Source of the DNA: Sipunculus nudus
Lineage: Eukaryota > Annelida > Sipuncula > Golfingiida > Sipunculidae
Length of the DNA stretch: 64,000 nt
Direction of reading: 5' to 3'
Assembly: GCA_026874595.1 (NCBI GenBank)
Contig: CM049313.1
Location: 34,561,159-34,625,158, forward strand
Made by a program: the position numbers and the translations under genes. Positions 2,744 to 60,777 of this stretch are shown here, piece after piece. How positions within the stretch are numbered: the stretch's first letter is position 1; each line of letters begins with the position of its first letter. The notes below the pieces were generated by a model that was given only the letters and a program-made list of their open reading frames with translations, made no database searches and was not told where the DNA came from.

Positions 2744-3309
2744 TTAAGCATTGTTTAAGTTGGTAATTGGTTTCCAGAGATTTTCGTGATATTTTAGTTT
2801 TCCTCTGGAAAGTGCCACCTTTGTTTCAATGTCATAGTAATATTTTATGAAATTTCTTGCACCATTAAATGACAACACCTCTCTTTTACACTTTTTCACA
2901 TATATGTAATATTTTACAAAGAGTATAATTTTGTCCAGTAATCCATTTAAGCTTACATTCAGAATTATTATTTTAATTGAGAAAAAGTTTGGAATACCAA
3001 AGGTTGTGAGCCAGTCATATGTTTTTTCCAAAGTTCCTTGGTATAATCACATTCATAAAATATATGTGTGATGGTTTCTTTCTTACTGTTACAAAAAGTA
3101 CATGGTTCACTCTCTATAATACCGGCTTTAGTCAAGAATGGGTTTAATGCAGGAATACGATGCACAATTTTATATTGAAAATATCTTAGTTTTGTAGAAA
3201 TTGTTATGTTATCAATATTCTGAAAAGCTTCATGTATTTCATCTCTTGTGCACTCTCCTAAATCTCTTTGCCATATTAAAATACTATTTTCTGGCTGAGT
3301 GCATTTCAT
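2744..3309 (-). pseudogene. LINE ORF2 zinc-binding motif and C-terminus
   Basis: Two overlapping open pieces (2968-3309 and 2744-3031) in different phases. The upper one holds LRYFQYKIVHRI and then CTFCNSKKETITHIFYEC, a C-x2-C-x7-H-x4-C zinc-binding (zf-RVT type) motif. The lower one carries the hydrophobic tail with a KYYIY-type segment that closes many L1/Tx1 ORF2 proteins. A frameshift lies in their overlap. Non-coding sequence follows down to the poly(A) tail. Confidence 0.75.
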
Positions 3310-3463
3310 CGCAACTAGTTCATTATAAAAAGGTTTGTAGGGTTTGCATGTTGAATTAATCTATTAATTATATATATATGTGCTCCCTCATAGTAGTTAT
3401 CACAAATTTCTGTTCACCATTTATTTGGTATTGCATGTATAAGACTATTATATCTCATTGTGT

Positions 3464-4063
3464 CTATATGTATTCCATATATATCCTGTAATTCAAGTTT
3501 ACTGAACAATGTATACTGGTTATTTTTTTTTTCTTGATTAAATCTTGGATATATCGAATTCCTGCTTCATACCATATTTTATAGAATGCAAGTTTACCAT
3601 TAATTTTAATATGTGAATTACACCACAGTGACTCTTTCAAATAATCCCCGACTGTTTCTGGCGTATCATAGTTGAACTTGCACCATTCTTGCAGGATTTC
3701 AAACCAAAAGTTATTTAATTTTCTTAGAAAAAGAATGCTATGCATATCTTCATATTTCATATTGCAAGTGAAAATATAAGCAGTCATATGCTTTAAACTT
3801 GTATCTATTAAATGCCTCCATCCAACATCTGTTTTTCCTGTTAACAATCTCTTTATCCAAGTAATCTTTGTGGCTCTAACTTTTGACCAGATATCCACCA
3901 TATTCAATCCTCCATACTTTTTTGGTTCTATTAAAGTGCTTCTTTTTATTTTATCTATTTTGCTATTCCATATGAAATTACTGAGTAATACCTCTATTTC
4001 CTTTAAGCAATGAGGTAGTATATTAGGTAAAAGAGATATATGGTACTGTGATTGTGATATCAT
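3464..4063 (-). pseudogene. LINE ORF2 connection region
   Basis: Continues the RT frame after one TAA. It carries FIWNSKIDKIKRSTL, KKYGGLNMVDIWSK and WCNSHIKINGKLAFYK, a pattern found downstream of the RT thumb in L1/Tx1 elements (a GGL or GGI motif and a W-x-N motif). No enzymatic residues are expected here. The same pattern recurs in the second LINE near 15.0-15.5 kb, which helped to place that fragment. Confidence 0.8.
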
Positions 4064-5145
4064 TTAAGATTTTATAACTGTAATTTTTCCTATTGGCGTT
4101 AACTGTCGTTTGTCCCAAATATTTATCATGTTTTTTATTTTTGTGATTGATGGTTTGAAGTTTAAATCATTTAAATTTTGTAATCTATTATTAATTTGAA
4201 TACCCAGTACCGTCACTGGTCCGGTAGTCCACTGCAGGCCCATCTTAATTATTTCATTTTTTCCATGTTCATGGTTTCCTATTGGCATGATTATAGTCTT
4301 TTCCAAATTAATTTTTAGACCACTTATAGAGTGGAATTGGCTAAACTGATCAATGGTTTCTTTAATAACCTCGGGTCTACTTTCTATAAACAATGACGTA
4401 TCATCTGCATATTGTGATATTTTATGTATTTTGTTATTTACCTCTATACCTTTTATTTCTTTATTATTTCTAATTCTTGTAGCCAATATTTCTGCACAAA
4501 TGATAAACAAATATGGTGACAGGGGGCATCCCTGTCGGACTCCCCTGTTAATATTAAAAAAATTCGTGGACCAGCCATTTTTTAATACACATGATGTTAT
4601 ATCCTTGTAAAAGACTTTTATCCATTGACTTATGTTATACCCGAAGTTGTAATAATCAAGAGCTTTATGTGTAAAAGGCCATTCTAATAAATCGAAAGCT
4701 TTTTCAAAATCTATAAGCATAAGATCAGCTTTTACTTTATTATTACTGCAATGTGAAAATAAACTATAGATCCTTGTGATAGTTTCTCCAATATACCTAT
4801 TGCGCAAAAATCCAGTCTGGTCGGAATGAATAATGTTTGGAAGTACTTTTTGTAATCTAAGAGCTATACATTTTGTAATAAGTTTATAATCAAAATTCAA
4901 AAGCGATATTGGTCTCCAATTTTTTAATAATTGAGGATCCTTAGATTTTTTTGGAATTAATGTTATAACGCCTTGTCTTTGTGATATATTAAGTCTGCCT
5001 TCTGTGAAAGAATAACTATATGAAGCCATTAAGTCTTTCCTGATATTTTCCCAGAATATTTTATAAAATTCTGCAGGCAAACCATCAATACCTGGCGATT
5101 TGCCATTCTGGAATGTTTTAAAACAATCTTCAAGTTCACTTTCGG
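4064..5145 (-). pseudogene. LINE reverse transcriptase domain
   Basis: Reverse transcriptase core of the element, open for 338 codons from 5080. Visible motifs in order are WRPISLLNFDYKLITK, DQTGFLRNR, LIDFEKAFD (first catalytic Asp), GVRQGCPLSPYLF, and QYADDTSLF (YADD at about residues 224-227, the catalytic Asp pair), then LKINLEKT and VLGIQI. The motif set and the spacing fit the L1/Tx1 group. All catalytic residues are present. The break is a TAA at 4064-4066, directly followed by the next open piece in the same frame. Confidence 0.9.
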
Positions 5146-5670
5146 TTAATTCTTTATCACAGTAATTTTTACTTCTTCTGAGAGGGTTTCGGGATTATCT
5201 TGGAAAAATTCATTAACAATTTCTATAGGGGGCTGTTGCTGCTCTGAAGAATATAATTTAGTATAAAACGTTGATATTTCCTTCAGAATATTATTCTCGT
5301 CAGTAATATATTGAACATCTTTTTGCTCTGATGATTTTTCAATTTTTAGTTTTGTGATAGTTTTTCTGTTATGCAACCTTTTTTCTAAATTTAAAAAATA
5401 TTTTGACGGTTTTTCCCCTTCTAAATACCAGGTAGTTTTACATCTTAGCATAGCACCCTCCGTTTTTTCTTGCATTATGGTTTCAATTTTAAGTTTCAGT
5501 GCATTTATTTCTTCTAAAAGATTCTCATCGGGTTTTTTCCCGTACTGTTCTTCTAATTCTGCTAATTTGGACTCTGTATGCTGCAGTATCTCTCGTTTTT
5601 GTTTCATTTGTCTAGAAGCATATGTAATCGTTGCCCCCCTTATCTTACATTTAATCGTATCCCACATCAA
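5146..5670 (-). pseudogene. LINE ORF2 linker between endonuclease and RT
   Basis: A charged, largely helical stretch of 174 codons, rich in Lys, Glu and Gln, in the same frame as the endonuclease part above it. It contains the typical RT-proximal segment with YLEGEKPSKYFLNLEKR. Linkers of this kind join the two enzymatic domains in L1-clade ORF2. A frameshift just below 5160 separates it from the RT frame, where the signature NGKSPGIDGLPAEFYK can be read across 5120-5065 in the next phase. Confidence 0.8.
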
Positions 5671-5697
5671 GGCTGGATTAGCATTACTGTTAAATTC

Positions 5698-6438
5698 TTA
5701 TGTTTCTATGATGGTATTTTTAATTAATTCTATGTATTCTGGAATCTTTAAATATTTACAATTAAGTTTCCAAAACCCTGGTCCCCTTTTCCTATATTTT
5801 AAATCGAGTCTAATTCCGATTGATGAATGGTCTGTTTTAAAACCTGGAAAAATCCAGCTGTTTTCCACATTTCCAACAAGGCCTTTTGATATTAAGAAAA
5901 AATCTAGTCTACAGAATATATTCGATGGTCTTAATCTTTTCCAAGTGAACTGCTGAAGTCGCGAATGTTGATCACGCCATATATCTACCATATCTAAATT
6001 GTCTTACCACATATGTATTATATTCTGTGCTCTTTGATGAGTTGTAGGATTACCTCCTTTTTTATCCTCCTTTATATTTAAAACTAAATTGAAATCGCCT
6101 CCCATTAATCTGTTATCATTGGGAAAGGATTCAACGTATTCCATTATTGTTTCGAAAAAGTCTGGACTATCATGGTTAGGCCCATATATATTCACTAATG
6201 TAAGTCTTGATTCTTCAATTGTAATATCTAATAATAGAAATTGCCCTTTCTCGCTTCTAATAATATCCTGTATTTCAAAATTAAGATCATTTTTTATCAG
6301 AATACATACTCCTTTAGAACTGCTTGTGCCATGTGAAAATAATATAGTACCTCCCCACTCGGCTCGCCAAGTTTTTTCATCTTTTGGGGTACTGTGTGTC
6401 TCTTGTAAAAAAAATACTTTAGCCTTTTTTATTTCTGC
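5698..6438 (-). pseudogene. LINE ORF2 endonuclease domain (broken)
   Basis: Minus-strand frame encoding the apurinic-like endonuclease that nicks target DNA for LINE insertion. Reading down from about 6438 there is the catalytic strand with FLQETH, then KGVCILI, then VNIYGPNHDSP and GGDFNLVLN (6004-6195), then a C-terminal part with RLDFFLISKGL and FKTDHSSI (5701-5991), which supplies the family Asp and His residues. The N-terminal Asn-containing strand is missing because the element is truncated there. One in-frame TAA at 6004-6006 and another at 5698-5700 interrupt what is otherwise one frame. Confidence 0.85.
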
Positions 6439-14829: not shown

Positions 14830-17131
14830 CTCAGATTTTTTTACTCTGAGTTATTCTTTTGTACAAATCTTTGAATAACACTTTAATCATATTTAGTATT
14901 ACATCTTTAAATGAAACATAATTAATATTTTCAGAAAATCTGAATACAGTTGTCTTGCATTACAAATGTACGAATGCAATCATGTCAATTCTGCGGGATA
15001 GGCTGTATTAAGGAAAACCAGTGTACATAGTACATTTTGCATTCATTACTGTCTGGAGGTATCATTTCATCCAGTATTTTCTTTTTTCCGCTGGTATTTG
15101 TAAGATCATGTACATACTTCACACTTTTTGCATCAAATTCTTTCATATATACATAATTACCTCCTATCTTTATAAAAGTATAGTTCCACACGCTTTGGGA
15201 CAACATTATTTCTGGGTTGCTTGGTTTACTAGACATGTATAATGACCATACGTTCAAGCATTTTTGATAGCAAACAGGAATGTCGTCACCAAAACGTCCG
15301 ATATCCAGATTTGCTGTAATATTCTTTACCCCTACCAATTTGTTAAGATAAAAAATTCGGCACAGCAGTATTTTTGGCATCTCCAGCGTTTAAAAATGTT
15401 ATCATCCACATTAATCTTTGACATTCAACTATCGATGCAACATCCGGCATTCCAATACCTCCTTCTTTCTTACAGTTTATCATAACTCCATTTATTTTGT
15501 TTGTGCTTTCGAACACATAAACCATCCATTTATATCTTTAAAAAGCTTTATATTTTTAATATCTATATGTTTACCTATTAGAATTATAACACCTCTCGAC
15601 TGGCTTTTACCGTTGCAAAAATATGTAGAGCCCTACCATTCTCGTTTCCATAAAGATTCGTCATTTTCCGTGCAATATTTTTCTTGTAAAAATATCACAC
15701 TATTTGCGCCACCTTTATCATTTAACCAGTTAAATACTTTATTCCTTTTCCTTTGTCCCCCTCAATCCTCCCACATTCCATGTTATTACTAGGAAAATAC
15801 ATACATGAATGATATAATTTATAGAACCGCTTATGTTCCACATAGATCACATTCATGTCTTATATACATACACTAAATTAACATTACATTTAACACATGT
15901 TTTTGTTGTCGTCAATTCCTCCATGCATCTGCGTACTTTCCATCTTAAAATACACGTAGGCAATGACATCAGTAATGTTCTGAATAACAAGGTGACCCGT
16001 CATTAATTGAATACAGCGATACAATTTCGCAAGAAATGTCCAAATGTAGAAAAAATGAACTAGTTTATGAAAACTTTCCACAGTCATGGTAGGTAATGAA
16101 TATAAATTGTAATGGAAATAAAATATCGATTTAGGGTTATGTTTTAAAAACATACAAAAGTAGTTTTTGAATTTTGAAATTTGTTTTGGATAAATAATCT
16201 GATTATATATCTTGCTTGGGATTAATTTAGAAAATGGCAAGGTGAGATGGACTCCCCTATAAACTTTCTCATCAACACAAGTTGATAGTGACATATATTA
16301 TACATGATTATGCACAATGCATACATTATTAAGTATCTTATAACTTTTAACTGGTGTTAATGCTTTGACAGTCTCAGCATACATATACGGAGGGTTTTCT
16401 CTTAAAACCAATTCCAACTGCTGAAATAATTTAAACGTTGTGAAGGTTATCACACGCTCATTGAAGTCTCTGCTTTTAATGGTGCCATCATGTGAGCAAA
16501 AGACCTTTACCAAACCAGCCTTTTTCAGCTGGCGGCCCTGTTTTAATATATTTTGCCTCTTTTTCGTCAAATCAACATTTATGAAGATGTCTCTGGCTTG
16601 GCCCTGCGAATTTCAGTTTCGCTTTAGCTTTATACAGTTTTGCTTTTGTACGGTATGATAGCAATTTAACTAAAATTGGCCTAGGTTTTATATCTGTACT
16701 TAGCCGACCAACTCTGTGCGACCTTTCAATGTTCTCAAACGATAATTCAACACCTAGATGTTCCTTGGCAATATCATGGTGTCTGTGCACTCCTCTGTAT
16801 TCTCTGGCCAGCTGTTTGATATTATCAGGGACTTGCGTCAAGAGCATTGTTGCTGATCGACCATTTGTTCCTGCAGACTATCTATCTCACTATTTATAGA
16901 TTCTAGTTGCATATTTTTTGTTCACATTCATGGGTTTTTTGCTAACTGCTTGGTCTATAATTGACTTTAATGCTCTCTTTACACTATCGTATTTTAATGC
17001 TTCTGTCAACAAGAGTGTGAAATTCTCTTGCTCAATATTAATTGAAATTTTATCTGGTGAGTTTGGCTGTAACTGTGATAAGGGTTTCTAATCAGATTTA
17101 TCAAATTTAACACTTTCACTAATGATTTGGT
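14830..17131 (-). mobile_element. Second L1/Tx1-like LINE, internally deleted
   Basis: Read on the minus strand from about 17131 downward: ORF1 (about 17131-16298), an inter-ORF stretch, the start of the ORF2 endonuclease (about 15800-15500), then an abrupt jump to the C-terminal part of ORF2 (15490-14985). The whole reverse transcriptase is missing. The endonuclease start is shown by a TWNVGGLRG-type strand, then FLQEKYC, then RGVIILIGKHI. The C-terminal part is shown by KKEGGIGMPDVA and by W-x-Y/N-FIKIGG. The portion 15646-17131 is duplicated at 17518-18885 plus 22213-22334. Confidence 0.8.
16298..17110 (-). pseudogene. LINE ORF1 (RNA-binding), copy 1
   Basis: ORF1 protein of the LINE, of the L1 ORF1p / transposase_22 type that coats LINE RNA. 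The N-terminal part (17090-16860) is helical, with ALKYDSVKRALKSIIDQAV and a coiled-coil-like EIDSLQEQMVDQQQ. The RRM-like part contains NIERSHRVGRL and RPILVKLLSYRTKAKLYKAK. The C-terminal part has VDLTKKRQNILKQGRQLKK. A stop near 16850 and a frameshift near 16590 break it. Copy 2 appears to carry the same lesions, so the gene was dead before the duplication. Confidence 0.8.
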
Positions 17132-17516
17132 TTGCTTTGGGGGGGGGGGGGGGGCGGGTTATGCACCGGGAAAGTGGAAGGGTCACTGTGAAGTCGTTTA
17201 CCGGTACCTTTAAAGCTACAGTCCCACTGAAGCAGGCAATACAACGGATAGGCAAGGATTACCACGGATCACCCGGGGCGTTTTATGGCAGAAATCGGCA
17301 GAAATCCATTTCACACAGCAGCATTGCGGTAGAGCCCCGGATCGTCCCGGCAGCGCCAAGGATCATCCCGGCAGCACCCCGGATGCACTGGAAATAACCC
17401 CGGCAAAGCCACGGATAGCCCCGGACCACCACGGCAGTGGCACGGACACCAACGATACGGATGAGCCCCGGATCATCACGGTTTACATTCCGCCCCGGAT
17501 CACCACGAATCGCCCC
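17132..17516. repeat. GC-rich degenerate repeat R, copy 1
   Basis: A poly-G tract (17139-17154), then a conserved stretch with GCTACAGTCCCACTG, then a run of degenerate 15-bp-like units built on CCCCGGATCATCACGG. It matches 22335-22721. The open frames on both strands (Arg/Pro-rich or Gly/Arg-rich) are composition effects. Confidence 0.8.
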
Positions 17517-18217
17517 ATTCCATAAAGATTCGTCATTTTCCGTGCAATATTTTTCTTGTAAAAATATCACACTATTTGCGCCACCTTTATCATTTAACCA
17601 GTTAATTACTTTATTCCTTTTCCTTTGTCCCCCTCAATCCTCCCACATTCCATGTTATTACTAGGAAAATACATACATGAATGATATAATTTATAGAACC
17701 GCTTATGTACCACATAGATCACATTCATGTCTTATATACATACACTTAATTAACATTACATTTAACACATGTTTTTGTTGTCGTCAATTCCTCCATGCAT
17801 CTGCGTACTTTCCATCTTAAAATACACGTAGGCAATGACATCAGTAATGTTCTGAATAACAAGATGACCCGTCATTAATTGAATACAGCGATACAATTTC
17901 GCAAGAAATGTCCAAATGTAGAAAAAATGAACTAGTTTATGAAAACTTTCCAAAGTCATGGTAGGTAATGAATATAAATTGTAATGGAAATAAAATATCG
18001 ATTTAGGGTTATGTTTTAAAAACATACAAAAGTAGTTTTTGAATTTTGAAATTTGTATTGGATAAATATTTTGATAATATATCTTGCTTGGGATTAATTT
18101 CGAAAATGGCAAGGTTAGATCGACTCCCCTATAAACTTTCTCATCAACACAAGTTGATAGTGACATATATTATACATGATTATGCACAATGCATACATTA
18201 TTAAGTATCTTATAACT

Positions 18218-18885
18218 TTAAACTGGTGTTAATGCTTTGACAGTCTCAGCATACATATGCGGAGGGTTTTCTCTTAAAACCAATTCCAACTGCTGAAATA
18301 ATTTAAACGTTGTGAAGGTTATCACACGCTCATTGAAGTCTCTGCTTTTAATGGTGCCATCATGTGAGCAAAAGACCTTTACCAAACCAGCCTTTTTCAG
18401 CTGGCGGCCCTGTTTTAATATATTTTGCCTCTTTTTCGTCAAATCAACATTTATGAAGATGTCTCTGGCTTGGCCCTGCGAATTTCAGTTTCGCTTTAGC
18501 TTTATACAGTTTTGCTTTTGCACGGTATGATAGCAATTTAACTAAAATTGGCCTAGGTTTTATATCTGTACGTAGCCGACCAACTCTGTGCGACCTTTCA
18601 ATGTTCTCAAACGATAATTCAACACCTAGATGTTCCTTGGCAATATCATGGTGTCTGTGCACTCCTCTGTATTCTCTGGCCAGCTGTTTGATATTATCAG
18701 GGACTTGCGTCAAGAGCATTGTTGCTGATCGACCATTTGTTCCTGCCGACTATCTACCTCCCTATTTATAGATTGTAGTTGCATATTTTTTGTTACGTTC
18801 ATGGGTTTTTTGCTAGCTGCTTGGTCTATAATTGACTTTAATGCTCTCTTTACACTATCGGATTTTAATGCTTCTGTCAACAAGA
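18218..18885 (-). pseudogene. LINE ORF1, copy 2 (interrupted by insertion)
   Basis: Duplicate of the ORF1 at 16298-17110, with NIERSHRVGRL and RPILVKLLSYRAKAK visible. It carries the same frameshift near the VDLTKKRQ segment. The upstream part of the ORF is separated by the transposon and resumes at 22213. Confidence 0.8.
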
Positions 18886-19451
18886 CACTTACAAAAGTGT
18901 GTAACGTAATGGAACGAACCTTTTACAGGCTCATGCATATTTATTTAGGTTGCATGAATACAATGACCTGGTCGTTGCGCATGCGCAGATGTTTCTGGGT
19001 CGCTACCACTATTACCAAAACAATAGCTTCACGTGGTGTTTTCCATGTATCTCTCAACACATCGTATCGGATTCATTCTCTTTTTTGTTTTCCTGCCGGG
19101 ATTTATTATGTCCAAGTATTGTTGATCATACTTCCTGCACCATCTCGGGTACGTAGAGCAAGGGATTATCAGTGATCAAGTGGGTACAACTACAAGTGCA
19201 GAGAGGGGAACGTGCACGGAATCAGACACCAGTCTGAGGCGATAACGCGGGACCCGTGTGCCGGCTTGCTGTCACTGTCAGATCTGGTTCCAAAGATTTA
19301 CACTGAAGATAATTTTGAGTTTGGTTCTGGATTTTCTTAACAGTTGGTTTATTTAAATTTGTGTGTCAGTGATTAAACCATTAGCACAACCCTCGTACCT
19401 ACTTCCACTCAGTGCCTTCAGTTATAAATATTTAATGAGCCATAGGCAACT

Positions 19452-19473
19452 CCCCCCCCCCCCCCCCCCCCCC
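19452..19473. repeat. Poly-C tract
   Basis: 22 consecutive C, inside the transposon. Similar runs occur at 713-726, 31381-31400 and, as G, at 17139-17154 and 22342-22359. Confidence 0.9.
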
Positions 19474-20066
19474 ATAATAATAAATTGTTAAACAAGTGTG
19501 CTCCATGCAATTATTTTTTATTTAATGATATTTTAACTCAACTTATTCTGAGTACTCAAAATAAAGTTATCAGTTGTGTTGTCAAAAAGCTGTGTAACCA
19601 GAGTTTCCTAGAATATTAATTTTTTAATTTAAATTAATATAATATTTAAGTCTGTCATGACCTTACTTTTCCACTAATAAACTTTCACTCACTTTGTTGT
19701 AAACGTTTCTTAAAATAATTAAGCCATAAACAATAAAATAAGTGGATCCCAAAGGAAAATGATCTGCAGTATTTAGACCCATAGGTAATAAGACGGGGAT
19801 AACATTATGTGCCTAGAATGTTAAGGCAATATTTCAGCTTGTGCAACCTGTAAATCACAGGACATAAAGATACCAGATGATTGAACTTTGAATGTATGGT
19901 TGATTTTGTTAATACATATTATATAAAATGTTAAAAGACCAAAGTGTTTCTTGTGTGATTAATGTATAAAACAAAATTGCATGACAACAAATTTGCCAAC
20001 ATTGATAAGGATGTGGATGCTTCTTTGTACACTTAAAATTACCTGAAATGTGTTTGTATTTGTTTG

Positions 20067-20078
20067 TATATATGTATA

Positions 20079-20132
<54 letters not shown>
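20067..20132. repeat. (TA)n microsatellite
   Basis: TA-rich run with some TG interruptions at its left end, inside the transposon. Confidence 0.9.
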
Positions 20133-20134
<2 letters not shown>

Positions 20135-21050
20135 GTTTATTTGAATACATAGACAAATATATGAAATGCCTTATTATGAGTTGTGTAGTATAGGTAGTAA
20201 TGTGTACAGCAAAGGTTAAGCCTGTTTTGTTTGCAGTTCATGCTTTTCAAAATTAAATTAGGTGGTCCCAGGGCAAAGCTAGTCAAATAAATGTACATTG
20301 TCAGCCTTAATGTAGGTTCAAAGCCATTTCAGATCAATATAGTAGACACCACATTTTATGACATTCACATGGTAACTAATCATACACATACAGAGGCAAA
20401 AGGAAGATTGTGCAACACATGTGATTAAAAGACAGTAGAACATGAGATTAAACAAAATAATGATAATTTTATTGTACATATATTCTAGAGAATAAGTTCT
20501 ATATTATAGTATGGTCAGATACACATAAACTTACCAGTTGTTTTTAATAAATATAAAATGTACATGAAAATTCATATCACTGAATGAAATATATATTACA
20601 CTAAAATATATTAGGGAATGCTTAACGAAAGAGTAATTTTTTTTTAACAAACCTGGAACTGTGAAAGCTGAGGGTTTACTGGTCATATGAACATTTAGAC
20701 AGTGGATTACATCACTGAAAAAAGTATAATTTTCTTTGTTCAAATGATCCTAATGCATTCCCAGGCAAACCCATTTCTTATGTATAAGTTTTTTAATTTC
20801 TGCAGATGGGTTAAAAACTGACATTAGCCAAAATGGGCATATATGTATACACCATGTATTGAAAGATTTCTCTTTGATTATTTTCATACATGATATGCAA
20901 CACTTTCTAGTTTAGTATATAACACTATAGTCAAAAGATTGAAATGATATGCCATTAGCAAATTTATATTGCCCCTGACATCATTGTTCAATGTCACAAA
21001 AAAAATGATCATTAAGGGATTAACAGTCAGTACTGAGTAATGTCATCAGT

Positions 21051-21158
21051 TCAAACTTCTCCCTCAAATAAAGATGATTTATGCTGATATGTTTGCTGCC
21101 AGCTCGACAATGTAGATTCTGTTTTCAGGCAAAATCCATATCCAAACAAGACTTTTTT
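21051..21158 (-). CDS. Unidentified terminal coding exon inside the transposon
   Basis: A 108-bp exon: 35 codons and a TGA stop (21051-21053), preceded by the pyrimidine-rich acceptor TACTTTCTTTTTAG. It follows the exon above after a 183-bp intron, phase 0 to phase 0. The peptide includes KKVLFGYGFCLKTESTLSSW and ends in SLFEGEV. There is no domain I can name. A TTTATT on the + strand near 20467 could be a polyadenylation hexamer for the minus-strand transcript. Confidence 0.58.
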   Translation of the reverse strand, partial: KKVLFGYGFCLKTESTLSSWQQTYQHKSSLFEGEV

Positions 21159-21341
21159 CTAAAAAGAAAGTAACAAACACATTGTGTATTCATTGAACAA
21201 AAAATTCATTAATTGCATGAACAATCTTAAAATGAATAACAACAATCTTTAATATCTGATGACTTTGAAAAAACATATTCACTTTAAAAAATCAAAACAA
21301 AAAAGTGGGACGATAACATAAAATTAAATTAAAAAATATAC

Positions 21342-21482
21342 CTTCACAATTTTTCTTTCAGTCAACCATATAGGTAAACCATAAACATTAATATGTGAAA
21401 AGAAGTGATGTTCTAGATAACTCGGTAATGGGCCTTCCCTCATGAATAATTTTTGCTTTAAAATTTTAACTGGAACTATTAA
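21342..21482 (-). CDS. Unidentified coding exon inside the transposon
   Basis: A 141-bp exon open in one phase for 47 codons. It is preceded by the acceptor TGTATTTTCAG and followed by the donor AAG|GTATAT, both canonical and both phase 0. The peptide contains KQKLFMREGPLPSYLEHHFF and NVYGLPIWLTERK. I do not recognise the family. The next exon (21158-21051) joins in frame. Upstream exons are uncertain: a strong GTAAGT donor lies at 21891 on this strand, but its apparent reading frame (a short ATG frame) would need another exon to join. The exon is too short to show as a long open frame, so it is easily missed. Confidence 0.6.
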
Positions 21483-21829
21483 CTGAAAATACATGTATTC
21501 ATTATTACAACATTTTCACAGATTTGAATGAAACAAAGAAATAAAGTATAAAAATAAAATATGATAATAATTTCAATATATGGTAGGGCACAAGTGAAAC
21601 TGTAGCACTGAAGTGGAGCACCCAAAACTGACGCTATAATAATATATTTGTCCAATAAAATATAAACAGTAATTAAGTAAAATTGTTATTGTTGTCTTTG
21701 AGCTATTCCATATATTATATCATTACCATAAATACAAGAAATATATGGGGAAATTGGTTTGTTTATGTTTTTTTAAAGGAATATAAAACGGGATTGAACG
21801 GGTTGTCGGTCAAGTATCCTGCATAATTT

Positions 21830-22180
21830 TGAACTTGAAAACATACTCGACAGCTTACACCCGCCGGAGGTCACCGGACATAAACACTTACCGCTGAAAT
21901 GGTCCTGTCAACAGATGGTGTATCGTGATTATATGAGCAGTCATTCACGCTAATTGACGATCAAAACCGGGGTCTTTTCCTTAATTGTGACCATTTTTGG
22001 ACATCCCTGCCGTGTCATTTTGTTTACCTGAGCTCCCAGTCGTGTCAGCTGTGACTGCCCGCGCTGTTATCACACGTGACCGCCACAAATCAAGTGAACA
22101 ACTGATGAAGCGGTCGCCTGGAGTAATACCACGTGAGGCCGCCAGGGGTCGGGGTTATCCGTAACTAGGCCTCATTATGC
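21830..22180 (-). promoter_or_regulatory. Candidate promoter/5' region of the transposon gene
   Basis: A CpG- and GC-richer island in AT-rich surroundings, at the right end of the transposon and upstream of the minus-strand exons. It holds two CACGTG E-boxes (about 22074 and 22130) and two good splice donors on the minus strand (GTAAAC near 22030, GTAAGT at 21891). This is consistent with a 5' exon and promoter, but there is no direct proof. Confidence 0.35.
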
Positions 22181-22334
22181 AACTGGATTTGTCCTAAGGG
22201 AATTTGTAAGTGCAAGAGTGTGAAATTCTCTTGCTCAATATTAATTGAAATTTTATCTGGTGAGTTTGGCTGTAACTGTGATAAGGGTTTCTAATCAGAT
22301 TTATCAAATTTAACACTTTCACTAATGATTTGGT

Positions 22335-22985
22335 TTGCTTTGGGGGGGGGGGGGGGGGGCGGGTTATGCACCGGGAAAGTGGAAGGGTCACTGTGAAGTC
22401 GTTTACCGGTACCTTTAAAGCTACAGTCCCACTGAAGCAGGCAATACAACGGATAGGCAAGGATTACCACGGATCACCCGGGGCGTTTTATGGCAGAAAT
22501 CGGCAGAAATCCATTTCACACAGCAGCATTGCGGTAGAGCCCCGGATCGTCCCGGCAGCGCCAAGGATCATCCCGGCAGCACCCCGGATGCACTGGAAAT
22601 AACCCCGGCAAAGCCACGGATAGCCCCGGACCACCACGGCAGTGGCACGGACACCAACGATACGGATGAGCCCCGGATCATCACGGTTTACATTCCGCCC
22701 CGGATCACCACGAATCGCCCCGGCAGTTTTTGACATACAAAAACTGCCGGCTCGCCTTCCCGGACCATCCCGGCAACGCTACGGATTACACCCTGGATCA
22801 CCCCTGACCTGTCCGTGGCACTTCCGTAGCTCTGCCGGGTCCTCTATGCGACTTACACTTAACCTTGAGACCGTTGCTACCTTTATTAGTGAGAGGGGGT
22901 TTCCCAGCTTCGCGCTTATTCATGAGGGATTTAGGGTCTTTGTTAACCCTGGAAACCATGCCAAGCAGTGTACGAGGTGACCTGT
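22335..22985. repeat. GC-rich degenerate repeat R, copy 2, longer
   Basis: Copy of 17132-17516 that continues past the duplication breakpoint. It has the poly-G tract (22342-22359), the degenerate CCCCGGATC units, a perfect 13-bp hairpin (22720-22732 with 22738-22750, loop of 5) and further CCCGG units to about 22845. No real protein is encoded. Confidence 0.75.
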
Positions 22986-38114: not shown

Positions 38115-39790
38115 ATTTCAGATCATCCCCCCTTAAGTTAACCCCCGGTAACTTGAAACGATTTTAAGATTATCCACGCTTCAGATTAGGGAGGGGTTGT
38201 GGTTAATCTGAAATCGATCTCAGATTACCCCGGGAAACTAGAAATCGATTTTAGATTACCGCCTGTGATATCAGATTAACACCTTCATAACAGTTTTGTT
38301 TTTATAAGTATATATTTAAAGTTCATACAATTTCTGTATTCTGGATTTCACAGATTAAGTGAATCTGTGCATATCTTATGTTAACATGTAATGTGTCATG
38401 TGTGAGTAAAAGAAAATAACTGTGTACCTAACATTTTATTTTACGTTAATTGACTCAGTCTTTTAAATCTTCACGTGGTTTATTGAAATAATATATCATG
38501 AGTTAAAAACATAAAAATTTATCATTTGGTTGAATCAGCCAGGGGAAACTTCAAATTAGGTTCAGACTACCATAATTCAGACTTATCAATCTCAGATTAC
38601 CGAGAGTAACATGAAAAAAAGGGGGGGGGGGGGGTAATCTGAAATCAATCTCAGATTACCGGAGGTAACATATAATGGGGAGGGTAATCTGAAATCACTC
38701 TCTGATTACCGGGGTAACATAAAATGGGTTAATTTGAAATCAATCTAACATAACCGAGGTAATCATGAAATGGGGGTAATCTGAAATCCATCTCAGATTA
38801 CCGGGGGTAACATGAATGGGGGGGGGGGGTAATCTGAATTCAATATCAGATTACCGGGGGTAACATGAAATGGGGGTAATCGGAAATCAATCTCAGATGT
38901 CCCGGGGTAACATGAAATAGGGGGGGGGATCTGAAATCAACCTCAGATTACCGGGGGTAACATAAATGGGGGGGGGGGTTAATCTGAATTCAATATCAGA
39001 TTACCGAGGGTAACATGAAATGGGGGTTATCGGAAATCAATCTCAGATGACCCGGGGTAACATGAAATAGGGGGGGGGGGGGATCTGAAATCAATCTCAG
39101 ATTTCCCGGGGTAACATTAAATGGGGGGTAATCTGAATTCAATCCCACATAACCGAGGTAAACATGAAATGGGGGTAATCTGAAATCAATCTCAGATTAA
39201 CGGGGGTAACATGAAATGGGGATAATCTGAAATCAATCCCACATAACCGAGGTAAACATGAAATGGGGGTAATCTGAAATCAATCTCAGATCAACGGGGG
39301 TAACATGAAATGGGGTGGGTAATCAGAAATCAATCTTAGATTACCGGGGTAACATGAAATGGAGGGTAATCTGAAATCAATTTCAGATTTCCCGGGCTAA
39401 CATGAAATAGGGGAATTCATACGTGATGATTAGGTAAACCTAATAGCACGTGGTGTTATTTGCAGGAAGCATTGCATCCAGAATAAAGACTGAGCCTTTA
39501 TGTGAATCAGTCTCAGAATACAGAGGGTAACATGAAATGGGGGTAATCTGAAATCTATCTCAGATTTCCCGGGGTAACATGAAATTGGGGGTAATCTGAA
39601 TGCAATCTCAGATTGAGAATGGTTACATGAAATGGGGGTAATCTGAAATCATTCTAAGATTTCACGGGGTAACATGGAATGGGGCGGGGGGGGGGGGGGA
39701 AGGTGGATCTGAATCAATTTCAGATTACCGAGGGTAACAAGAAATGGGGGTAATCTGAAATCAATCTCAGATTTCCGGGGGTAACATGAA
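38115..39790. repeat. Array of ~47-bp palindromic units
   Basis: About 27-30 imperfect units after a more diverged start. The unit is roughly CATGAAATGGGGGTAATCTG then AAATCAATCTCAGATTACCG then GGGGTAA. GGTAATCTGA and TCAGATTACC inside each unit are inverted repeats, so each unit can form a hairpin. Runs of G vary from 3 to 13. A part between 38285 and 38560 is non-repetitive. There are no constant-length spacers, so this is not a CRISPR. Confidence 0.9.
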
Positions 39791-39889
39791 ATAGGGGAAT
39801 TCATACGTGATGATTAGGTAAACCTAATAGCACGTGGTGTTATTTGCAGGAAGCATTGCATCCAGAATAGAGACTGAGCCTTTATGTGA
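39401..39889. repeat. 105-bp non-array segment present twice
   Basis: 39401-39505 and 39785-39889 are nearly identical (GGGGAATTCATACGTGATGA ... ACTGAGCCTTTATGTGA). The second copy is the junction of the array with right-flanking sequence, so the first copy marks a block duplication of flank plus array. Confidence 0.85.
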
Positions 39890-45734: not shown

Positions 45735-46010
45735 TATTTGCCTTCGCCTGTTCATCACCGATCGTGTGTGTGTGTTTTGTGTATTTTTGTATACGTTTGA
45801 GCACAACATAACTCGCGCAGTCATAGCATGAACGGTATCTCATGAATATTTAAGGGGATTTTGGGAAGGGCAAATGAAGAACCGGTTATATTTTGGTGTG
45901 AATCTGGCACATGGTCAGGATTCAGGAAAGACATCGAGGAATATTCACAAATGTTATGTCACTTATGTACGAATGAACCTGAGAATAGCGGCGACTTGTA
46001 TTTTTTGGAA
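45735..46010 (+). mobile_element. Helitron-like element, 5' part
   Basis: Matches 29400-29660: ATATTTGCCT(T/C)CGC, the TGTGTGTG stretch, ATCTCATGA, ATTTT-GG-A, TTGGTGTG-ATC-GGCACATG and GGATTCAGGAA-G-CATC. It leads directly into the 66-bp array, which is an expansion of the element's 3' hairpin region. Confidence 0.6.
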
Positions 46011-47935
46011 TGCATTTTTCTAATATTACATGGTTTCCGTGAATGTCCACATGGCGGCGGCTTGTATTTGTTGGAATGCAGAATTCTAATATCACAGGGT
46101 TTTCCTGAATGTCCACATGGCGGCGACTTGTATTCCCCGGAATGCAGATTTCTAATATTACATGGTTTTCCTGAATGTCCACATGGCGGCGGCTTGTATT
46201 CCCCGGAATGCTGATTTCTAATATCACAGGGTTTTTCTGAATGTCCACATGGCGGCGACTTGTATTTCTTGGAATGCAGATTTCCGATATCACAGGGTTT
46301 CCCTGAATGCCCACATGGCCGCGGGTTGTATTCTTTGGAATGCAGGTTTATGATATCACATGGTTTTCCTCAATGTCCACATGGCCGCGGCTTGTATTCT
46401 TTTGAATGCAGATTTCTAATATCACATGGTTTTCCTGAATGTCCACATGGCCGCGGCTTGTATTCTTTGGAATGCAGATTTTTAATTTCACATGGTTTTC
46501 CTGAATGTAAACATGGCCGCGGCTTGTATTCTTTGGAATGCAGATTTCTGATATCACAGGGTTTCCCTGAATGCCCACATGGCCGCGGCTTGTATTCTTT
46601 TGAATGCAGATTTCTGATATCACATGGTTTTCCTGAATGTCCACATGGCGGCGGATTGTATTCTTTGGAATGCAGGTTTCTAATATCACATGGTTTTCCT
46701 GAATGTCCACATGGCCGCAGCTTGTATTCTTTGGAATGCAGATTTCTGATATCACAGGGTTTCCCTGAATGTCCACATGGCCGCGGCTTGTATTCTTAGG
46801 AATGCAGATTTCTGATATCACATGGTTTTCCTAATTGTCCACATGGCCGCGGCTTGTATTCTTTTGAATGCATTTTTCTGATATCACATGGTTTTCCTTA
46901 ATGTCCACATGGTGACGACTTGTATTTCTTGGAATGCAGATTTCTAATATCACAGGGTTTTCCTGAATGTCCACATTGCGGCGAGTTGTATTTCTTGGAA
47001 TGCAGATTTCTAATATCATATGGTTTCCGTGAATATCGGAATGCCGGTGGCTAGTATTTCTTTGAATGGAGATTTCTAATATCACAGGGTTTCCTTAATG
47101 TCCACATGGCGGCGACATGTATTTCTTGGAATGCAGATTTCTAATATCACAGGGTTTCCTTAATGTCCACATGGCGGCGACATGTATTTCTTGGAATGCA
47201 GATTTCTAATATTACATGGTTTTCCTGAATGTCCACATGGCGGTGGCTTTTAATCCTTGGAAAGCAGATTTCTAATGCAACATTGTTTTGTGAATATCCA
47301 AATGGCGGCGGCTAGTATTTTCTTGGAATGCAGATTTCAAATATCAAATGGTTTCCCTGAATGTCCAGATGGCGGCGGCTTGTATTCTTTGGAACGTAGA
47401 TTTTTCATAACACATGGTTTTCCTGAATGTCCACATGGCGGCAGCTTATATTCTTTTGTATGCTGATTTCTAAAATCACATAGTTTCCGTGAATGTGCAC
47501 AAGGCGGCGGATTGTATTCCCCGGAATGCAGATTTCTAATATCACATGGTTTTCCTGCATGTCGACGTGGCCGCGGCTTGTATTCTTTGGAATGCAGATT
47601 TCTGATATCACGAGGTTTTCCTGAATGTCTACATGGCCGCGGCTTGTATTCTTTGGAATGCAGATTTTTTATATCACATAGTTTTCCTGAAGGTCCACAT
47701 GGCCGTGGCTTGTATTCCTTGGAATGCAGATTTCTAATATCACATGGTTTTGTTAAATGTCCACATGGCCGCGGGTTGTACTCTTTGGAATGCAATTTCT
47801 GATATCACATGGTTTTCCTGAATGTCCACATTGAAGCGGCTTGTATTCTTTGGAATGCAAATGTCTGATATCACATTTTTTCCCTAAATATGCACATGGT
47901 CGCGGCTTGTATTCTTTGGAATGCATATTTCTGAC
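46005..47935. repeat. 66-bp minisatellite, about 29 units
   Basis: The unit is exactly 66 bp in most copies (for example CTGAATGTCC at 46105 and 46171). It contains TGTATTCTTTGGAATGCA, the same hairpin plus AGATTTCTA that closes the Helitron-like element at 29722-29747. Because 66 is divisible by three, both strands stay open over long stretches as 22-residue repeats (+ strand ECPHGRGLYSLECRFLISHG; minus KNTSRGHVDIQGNPVISEIC). Two unit types alternate in blocks: GGCGGCGGC (about 46.0-46.3 and 46.9-47.5 kb) and GGCCGCGGC (46.3-46.9 and 47.5-47.95 kb). I see no evidence that either frame is a gene. Confidence 0.95.
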
Positions 47936-57956: not shown

Positions 57957-58085
57957 ATAAAACAAATGCATATATATATATATCAGAACGCCATATTGGA
58001 CCATAACTATTCCTTTATTCAATATGACGTCACAATATTCATACACCGGTTGTGTTACATCAATATCAATACGCGACAGTTCTCC
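57957..58085 (-). repeat. 3' LTR segment with CRE-like palindrome
   Basis: Part shared with 60664-60777. It contains TGACGTCA (the CRE palindrome), present in both LTR remnants, and a short TA run not present in the other copy. Confidence 0.65.
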
Positions 58086-59414: not shown

Positions 59415-59729
59415 TCATGGCCACCAAATATAGGACCTTGCCACCGATTTCATTTTCCCTATACCAACGTGTCCACTATGTAATTCTGACAATACTGTAC
59501 TACGATACTTTGATGGTACAATAACTCTAAGACCCCTCATCAAACATACCTGTTCAAGTGACAATTCATTCCTTCTGTGGTAAAATGATCTTAATACTAC
59601 ATCACCTTCTGGGAGCCTCATTGGCCACCCATCATGCACATATATCACAACTTTCCACAATACAGGATCTTTCCTGTTTTCTCTTACAGTTTGGTCCCTA
59701 GGAACAGGTAAAACACCAATAAGAAACAC
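59415..59729 (-). pseudogene. Gypsy integrase zinc-binding (H2C2-like) part
   Basis: 104 open codons. SKYRSTVLSELHSGHVGIGK and MKSVARSYIWWP correspond to the second half of the integrase H-H-C-C domain that precedes the catalytic core. The segment before it (RNELSLEQVCLMRGLRVIVP) fits the family. Confidence 0.8.
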
Positions 59730-59779
59730 ATGCGATGCTGAAGCTTCAGTTTCTACCTGGGCACTGTCAGTTGGTAGTC

Positions 59780-60460
59780 TGAACAGACAATCAACATTTG
59801 CTTAGCTAGGTCTAAATCTTATGTCATAATCAAATCCTGTTAAGTACATAGCCCATCGCTGCATCCTTTTTGCTGCCAAAATAGGTAAACCTGTCTTTGA
59901 GATAAATATGGCAGTTAATGGCTCGATGTCTGATTCCAATGTGAACCTATGGTCATATAGGAAAAGATAGAACTTATTCACAGCAAAAATAATACCTTAT
60001 GCTTCTCGTTTAATCTGTGAATAGTTCGTTTCAGTTTTGCGAAGTCTACACAAAGCGAACTGCACTTGTCTCTCTTCACCGTTCACATATGTATTAAAGC
60101 TACAGCTTCAGGTGAAACATCTGTTGCTACAGTTATGGGCAGGCTAGGATCGAAATGTACAAGAAAACCCGAGTTCTGCAATAACTCTTAGGACTTCTTC
60201 AAGCCTTTCTTGCTGTACCTGGCCACTTTAAATGAGACGTCTTCTCAAAAAGTGCTGCAAATCGTGCAAACACTGAGGCTAATCCTGCAATGAATTTTCT
60301 GTAGTAATTAACCCTAATTTGACTCTGAAATCAGACACATTCTGTGGTTCCATCATTTCTAAAATTTGGTTCACTTGAGCGTGTGCTTTGTGTACTTCAT
60401 CTTTACCGATAACATGACCCAAGTATTCCATTGAGGCTTTTATAACTTTTATCAGGACTC
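59780..60460 (-). pseudogene. Gypsy pol: RT end and RNase H
   Basis: Pieces in several phases. EYLGHVI near 60430-60410 is the end of the RT. ETNYSQIKREA near 60020 and KFYLFLYDHRFTLESD near 59950 belong to RNase H (the D of the ESD segment is catalytic). LPILAAKRMQRWA and TGFDYDIRFRPS follow. At least four stops or shifts break the region. The protein cannot be made. Confidence 0.75.
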
Positions 60461-60663: not shown

Positions 60664-60777
60664 TAAATAAATGCATATCAGAACAACATTTTGGACCGGA
60701 ACTGCTTTCTTAATTCAATATGACGTCACAATATTCATACATCGGTTGTGTTACATCAATATCAATACCTGATAAAA
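60664..60777 (-). repeat. 5' LTR remnant
   Basis: Counterpart of 57957-58085, truncated at the upper end where a minisatellite begins. It also contains TGACGTCA. Confidence 0.65.

Follow-up and report, generated by a model that had tools for sequence, protein, structure and literature searches.

Background

Antibody gene rearrangement derives from RAG transposons, and Transib elements, which carry a single transposase gene, have the heptamer CACWATG. CAC termini and 5-bp target-site duplications (TSDs) are described as common to Transib and to the RAG-like (RAGL) transposons (PMC7204232). The same work gives the terminal inverted repeat (TIR) consensus of the protostome RAGL transposons as CACTWMCAAACKTYKBB, with the core CACTWMCAAA, and 5-bp duplications throughout; it further describes a small number of non-autonomous RAGL elements from the pearl oyster Pinctada imbricata and several deuterostomes, which have a RAGL-type TIR pair and often TSDs, and are without intact RAG1L or RAG2L. 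Amphioxus ProtoRAG has the heptamer CACTATG, a 5-bp TSD and two unlike ends with inner conserved blocks, its block GCCATCTTG following spacers of 27/31 bp, and a GC bias of the TSDs has been reported for ProtoRAG, Transib and RAG alike (PMC8289069).

Here we describe an element, found in a 64-kb stretch of DNA (the window), which in our estimate is with a probability of roughly 93% a non-autonomous RAGL DNA transposon that is moved by the RAG1L-RAG2L proteins which the genome's own RAGL transposons encode. It resembles the elements of Pinctada imbricata and deuterostomes in its RAGL-type TIR pair, its TSDs and the want of an intact RAG1L or RAG2L; whereas those are small in number, 29 distinct two-ended copies are found here. 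The element adds to an already known kind, and the genome in which it sits documents it unusually well. A search of the open-access literature recovered no earlier description of a non-autonomous RAGL family that has been amplified.

Structure and coding content of the element

The initial annotation had placed at this locus a 3.3-kb DNA transposon with CAC termini and a 5-bp TSD, and its boundaries, its 10/10 TIRs and the CAAGA on both sides all prove to be exact (Table 1). The element has a length of 3,327 bp, starts with CACTTACAAA and ends with TTTGTAAGTG, and its AT-rich interior contains a (TA)n tract (20067-20132). A screen of the window for pairs of perfect 10-bp inverted repeats with identical 5-bp outer flanks (200-8000 bp spacing, simple repeats excluded) recovered four such pairs, with the three besides the element all lying in one G-rich minisatellite. 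The TIR and TSD structure of the element is real and unlikely to be a product of chance. An LTR element is ruled out as the ends are inverted and are not of the TG..CA type.

Table 1. Features of the element and of the tandem units around it, in window coordinates
Feature	Position	Strand	Remarks
Whole element	18886..22212	.	3,327 bp, AT-rich interior
Left TSD copy, CAAGA	18881..18885	.	basis: sequence
Right TSD copy, CAAGA	22213..22217	.	basis: sequence
Left TIR, CACTTACAAA	18886..18895	+	protostome RAGL core 10/10, 17-base consensus 15/17
Right TIR, CACTTACAAA	22203..22212	-	CACATACAAA instead in 14/21 copies
Constrained left end	18886..18915	+	six older copies, first 30 bases against the rest
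Left terminal 150 bp	18886..19035	+	shares homology with the C10 RAGL on the RAG2L side
Right terminal 150 bp	22063..22212	-	shares homology with the RAGL transposon on the RAG1L side
CCAGTTGCATAAT block	22174..22186	-	begins 26 bases inside the right end
Tandem unit 1, without the element	15646..17517	.	1,872 bp
Tandem unit 2, containing the element	17518..22721	.	1,872 bp when the element and one TSD are subtracted
Empty site, target CAAGA uninterrupted, in tandem unit 1	17010..17014	.	

The longest frame lying entirely within the element is of 95 aa. Pfam searches with ten fragments of the element and with its six frames (X at stops) returned nothing over the family cut-offs and no remains of RAG1L or RAG2L coding sequence, and the weak matches below the cut-offs look like chance. 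A search of the window against Rfam at gathering scores gave no match, and the comparison with a phage collection likewise gave none. The convergent RAG1L and RAG2L genes that mark autonomous RAGL transposons are encoded by the protostome RAGL transposons and by those on C10, C7 and C3 of this genome (12 kb on C10), whereas the element encodes neither. As the initial annotation saw no transposase in the element, so we found no coding gene in it, which makes it non-autonomous.

Terminal repeats and the RAGL consensus

Both ends of the element match the RAGL core CACTWMCAAA at 10/10 positions, and the whole consensus at 15/17 and 14/17 positions, a score of 14/17 being by itself common (24 places in the window). 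The exact core occurs only twice on the two strands of the window, these being the ends of the element, against about one occurrence expected by chance. The initial annotation had left the assignment of the heptamer CACTTAC in doubt; this doubt falls away, since the reference was the Transib and vertebrate consensus, and the protostome RAGL core fits at all ten positions. As CACTTAC fails the CACWATG of Transib, agreeing with it at 4/7 positions, and fits CACTWMCAAA exactly, the termini favor a RAGL element over a classical Transib. Accordingly, of the earlier suggestion that the element belongs to or uses RAG/Transib machinery, as a non-autonomous element or a new group, the RAG and non-autonomous parts are retained, and the new group and the classical Transib are dropped.

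A recently amplified family

Searches of the genome (1.43 Gb, a eukaryotic size) with the left end (first 555 bases) recovered at least 42 matches, 32 of which start at base 1, and those with the right end (last 413 bases) recovered at least 43. Of the 42 left-end matches, 30 were taken up as loci (L009-L038, with L009 being the window copy). L010-L029 were then followed across to both ends, as L039-L058, and for the nine loci L030-L038 the reading covered just 1.5 kb to each side; hence, the 21 copies read to both ends are the window copy and 20 others. L001-L008, which are matches to the 10-mer only, are excluded from the counts. Pairing of left with right ends gave 31 combinations; in two of these the left end is split and enters a second time with its other piece, which leaves the 29 distinct two-ended copies. 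Both ends are at 95% or above in 23 of the 29, and 21 of these 23 were read. Perfect and mutually different 5-bp TSDs lie at the exact boundaries in 18 of the 21 copies. The check proposed with the initial annotation, namely querying the genome with the ends, thus bears out both the boundaries and the length of the TSD. In the remaining copies (L050, L057 and L058) an end is damaged or shifted, and a displaced 5-bp repeat can be seen beside it by eye.

Divergence from the per-column majority, with microsatellite and poly-C columns masked, is 0.5-1.7% among the copies. Between the window copy and L039, a copy located on C1, there are 3 substitutions and 24 gap columns; given that only three substitutions separate these two, copying was recent, and the family is a recently amplified one. 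The exact TIR core is present in 26 of the 30 left-end loci, including four at 80-86% identity. Across six older copies, identity amounts to 174/180 within the first 30 bases and to 2681/3034 over the remainder of the 555-bp end (Fisher p 9e-5). L035, the seventh of the older copies, is matched from base 7 onward; it lacks the conserved outer end and was left out of this test. On this pattern of conservation, the terminal bases seem to have been maintained in the older copies. The 10-mer CACTTACAAA alone shows no enrichment, with 6,300 matches in the genome versus 9,169 for the reversed control, and the argument consequently depends on the paired ends, the TSDs and the longer homology.

At the left, 19 of the 21 copies have the heptamer CACTTAC; at the right, 14 copies have CACATAC (15 with the trimmed bases of L050 counted in) and six, including the window copy, have CACTTAC. 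The combination of CACTTAC at the left with CACATAC at the right is found in 13/21 copies (14 with L050 past its trim), and this commonest pair is that of the RAGL transposons of the same genome; in L045 the pair is reversed.

RAGL transposons in the same genome

The genome contains 34 above-cut-off matches to the RAG1 family PF12940, some of which are pieces of one locus, and 14 control genomes contain none (0/14). We read a RAGL transposon on C10 in full (12,220 bp, TSD ACACA) and one on C7 in part (12,699 bp by coordinates, TSD GGATG), both of which terminate in CACATAC at one end and CACTTACAAA at the other. The RAG1L-side boundary, CACATACAGATG, is where the C10 and C7 copies cease to agree, and the RAG2L-side boundary, CACTTACAAATG, was placed by the TIR on C10, with the likeness to C7 stopping at the same base. 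Both the protostome RAGL transposons and those on C10, C7 and C3 have the CACTTACAAA terminus and the 5-bp TSDs in common with the element; with the genome's own RAGL transposons the likeness goes further, to the CACATAC of the opposite end and to end homology extending beyond the TIR.

The RAG1L frame on C10 is open (957 aa searched), with the RAG1, the importin-binding and one RING family above cut-off, and it matches the amphioxus RAG1L of 6b40 with E=9e-151. In an alignment inspected by eye it retains the acidic residues that we take to be the catalytic ones of mouse RAG1. Its C-terminal CGTCGNTGHNKLTC fits the Cx2Cx3GHx4C motif (PMC7204232). The convergent RAG2L on C10 has an open frame of 470 codons, with the PHD above cut-off and the kelch (E=5.6e-9) below its cut-off, and it matches the RAG2L of 6b40 with E=7e-17. 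The RAG1 match has one stop on C7 and none on C10.

The 600 bases of the RAG1L side are complete at four places (C10, C7 and two on C3) with 98-100% identity, and at least 499 bases of the RAG2L-side end recur at ten places, including five within a single tandem array on C17; both ends are present in the C10 and C7 copies and in the C3 copy at 52.1 Mb. Further PF12940 matches with open frames are located on C2, C11 and C14. None of the 85 end matches of the element comes closer than 0.84 Mb to any of 20 RAG1 places representing the 34 PF12940 matches. The initial annotation had recommended looking for longer relatives with a RAG1/Transib-type transposase, and relatives that share the TIR and encode RAG1 and RAG2 are present in the genome. 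Judging from their sequences, these RAGL copies are candidate autonomous partners of the element and a possible source of its transposase.

Homology between the ends of the element and of the RAGL transposons

We compared the terminal 150 bp of the element with the ends of the RAGL transposon using dinucleotide-preserving shuffles. The left end aligned with the RAG2L-side end with a score of 56, and with a score of 39 upon removal of the first 10 bases, neither being reached by any of 1000 shuffles. The right end aligned with the RAG1L-side end with a score of 37, and here too none of the 1000 shuffles reached the observed score, either with or without the first 10 bases. The scores of the crossed pairings were reached by 553 and 123 of 1000 shuffles, and the left and right ends of the element bear no significant likeness to each other (313/1000). 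The end homology is specific and co-oriented, with the left end corresponding to the RAG2L side and the right end to the RAG1L side. The CCAGTTGCATAAT block lies at an identical distance of 26 bases from the RAG1L-side end of the RAGL transposon. Among the copies it is found at 26 in 20/21, and in L050 at 9, which with the 17 trimmed bases again makes 26. The family shares with ProtoRAG the CAC heptamer, the 5-bp TSD and the two unlike ends with inner conserved blocks, but differs from it in its CACWTAC heptamers and in having CCAGTTGCATAAT, from 26 bases in, at one end.

In blastn comparisons of the element with the C10 RAGL we recovered an AT repeat (E 8e-5) and two patches in the left end that are weak alone (36 bp, 78%, E 0.04; 61 bp, 72%, E 0.011), with all other matches at E of 0.49 or more. 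Given this patchiness, the element may not descend directly from C10-type copies.

Proposed mechanism

By analogy with the known RAG and ProtoRAG reactions, we infer that the RAGL proteins are the movers of the element; which RAGL copy provides them is likewise a matter of inference. A RAG1L-RAG2L transposase from the full-length RAGL copies would bind the two unlike ends of the element, where the signals recognized would be the CAC heptamer, the A-rich sequence that reaches about base 17 and, at one end, probably the block 26 bases in. It would then excise the element and join it to the target with a 5-base stagger, generating the 5-bp duplication.

Alternative explanations and the empty site

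A variant that is compatible with this reading takes the element to be of the RAGL type and has it moved by a RAGL family other than the C10/C7/C3 group. The open-frame PF12940 matches on C2, C11 and C14 and the patchy end homology to C10 speak in its favor, whereas the commonest pair of heptamers, the way it is oriented and the 26-base distance all agree with the C10 group; we regard this variant as quite possible, if somewhat doubtful. A non-autonomous Transib element, dependent on a RAG1-type transposase without RAG2, would likewise display CAC termini and 5-bp TSDs (PMC7204232), and some of the weaker PF12940 matches could be Transib. However, the heptamer agrees at just 4/7 positions as against 10/10 for the RAGL core, the ends are homologous to those of a RAG1L-RAG2L transposon, and a survey of mollusc genomes is described as having identified one Transib element (PMC10294476), all of which renders this origin very improbable. 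We attach even less probability to a non-autonomous element of hAT5 or of another CMC-clade group (EnSpm, Chapaev, Mirage). EnSpm/CACTA, Chapaev and Mirage generate TSDs of 2-4 bp, as opposed to the 5 bp observed in 18/21 copies. The TSD length does fit hAT5, which is described as making 5-bp TSDs, and the CMCT clade, Transib included, as having mostly CA..TG ends with TSDs of 2-5 bp (PMC12730594), but the exact match to the RAGL core and the RAGL homology at both ends are contrary to such an affiliation.

A separate question concerns the insertion site, which the initial annotation considered to be precisely dated by an empty site in the neighboring tandem unit. The intact target TCAACAAGAGTGTG is indeed found uninterrupted at 17006-17019 in unit 1. 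Units 1 and 2 differ by 23 substitutions over 1,870 compared positions, with 4 gap columns (~98.8% alike), and all 23 substitutions lie to the left of the insertion and none to the right; a Pfam search with unit 1 at E 0.1 gave no match. As the target is empty in unit 1, the duplication preceded the insertion, provided that the units represent a real duplication. This order is what survives of the dating, the claim having been too strong in that it carries no absolute date. The two units could instead be an assembly artefact in which haplotypes with and without the insertion were set in tandem, as might be suspected from their adjoining positions, their similarity and the lack of any substitution to the right of the insertion. 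We consider this unlikely; moreover, the family and its TSDs at other loci are independent of the empty site, and under such an artefact the element would stay real and only the order of duplication and insertion would be lost.

Implications

A single genome here contains both 18 insertions with exact junctions and candidate transposase genes, and the older copies reveal which terminal bases persist. The two ends of the element are unlike and each corresponds to a different side of the RAGL transposon, which bears on how V(D)J recombination came by its two-signal rule. We tentatively raise the possibility of an active RAG transposition system in an animal that the TIR suggests to be protostome-like, wherein near-identical and possibly working RAGL transposons would now be moving a protein-less family; the fixed RAG2L-side and RAG1L-side ends of this family, as if unlike ends were needed, might then represent a forerunner of the 12/23 pairing in V(D)J recombination. 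In contrast to the GC bias of the TSDs of ProtoRAG, Transib and RAG, those of the element family have only a slight excess of G+C (42% versus 36.5% in the window).

Tandem units and size variation of the element

Comparison of the two tandem units (15646-22721), of which the second carries the non-autonomous RAG-like (RAGL) transposon, revealed that all 23 substitutions between them sit left of the insertion point, with none across the ~504 bp to its right. This asymmetry could be explained if one side underwent gene conversion, or it could be an effect of the assembly. Another copy of the element elsewhere in the genome (L049) displays ~1 kb of extra sequence at its (TA)n tract.

RAGL ends and RAG1 pieces elsewhere in the genome

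On contig C17 (G000:C17:37334878-37366621) we recovered five RAG2L-side RAGL ends with equal scores, spaced exactly 7,812 bp apart; this series is a tandem array, the repeated unit of which contains a RAGL end. The locus G000:C13:53570992-53591311, where pieces of RAG1 are present in both orientations and a RAG2L-side terminus is immediately adjoined by 93 bases belonging to a RAG1L-side end, is a nested or rearranged RAGL. Beyond the C10 group of transposons encoding RAG1L and RAG2L, additional RAG1 frames occur at G000:C2:3873420-3875147 and at other loci matching the Pfam RAG1 domain, one of these frames being open over 997 codons.

Other repeats in the window

The integrase zinc-binding frame and the direct repeats surrounding it perhaps constitute an LTR element. 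Several frames are open in the 66-bp minisatellite.

Minisatellites, a LINE-type retrotransposon and a possible LTR element in the window
Feature	Position	Strand	Remarks
LINE-type retrotransposon, broken	2968-6438	-	reverse-transcriptase frame and endonuclease-like frame (match of the latter below its cut-off)
Minisatellite, G-rich	38585-39797		47-bp unit
Minisatellite	45985-47934		66-bp unit, ~29 copies
Direct repeat pair	57972-58072 and 60667-60768		87%; flanks the integrase zinc-binding frame
Integrase zinc-binding frame	59415-59801	-
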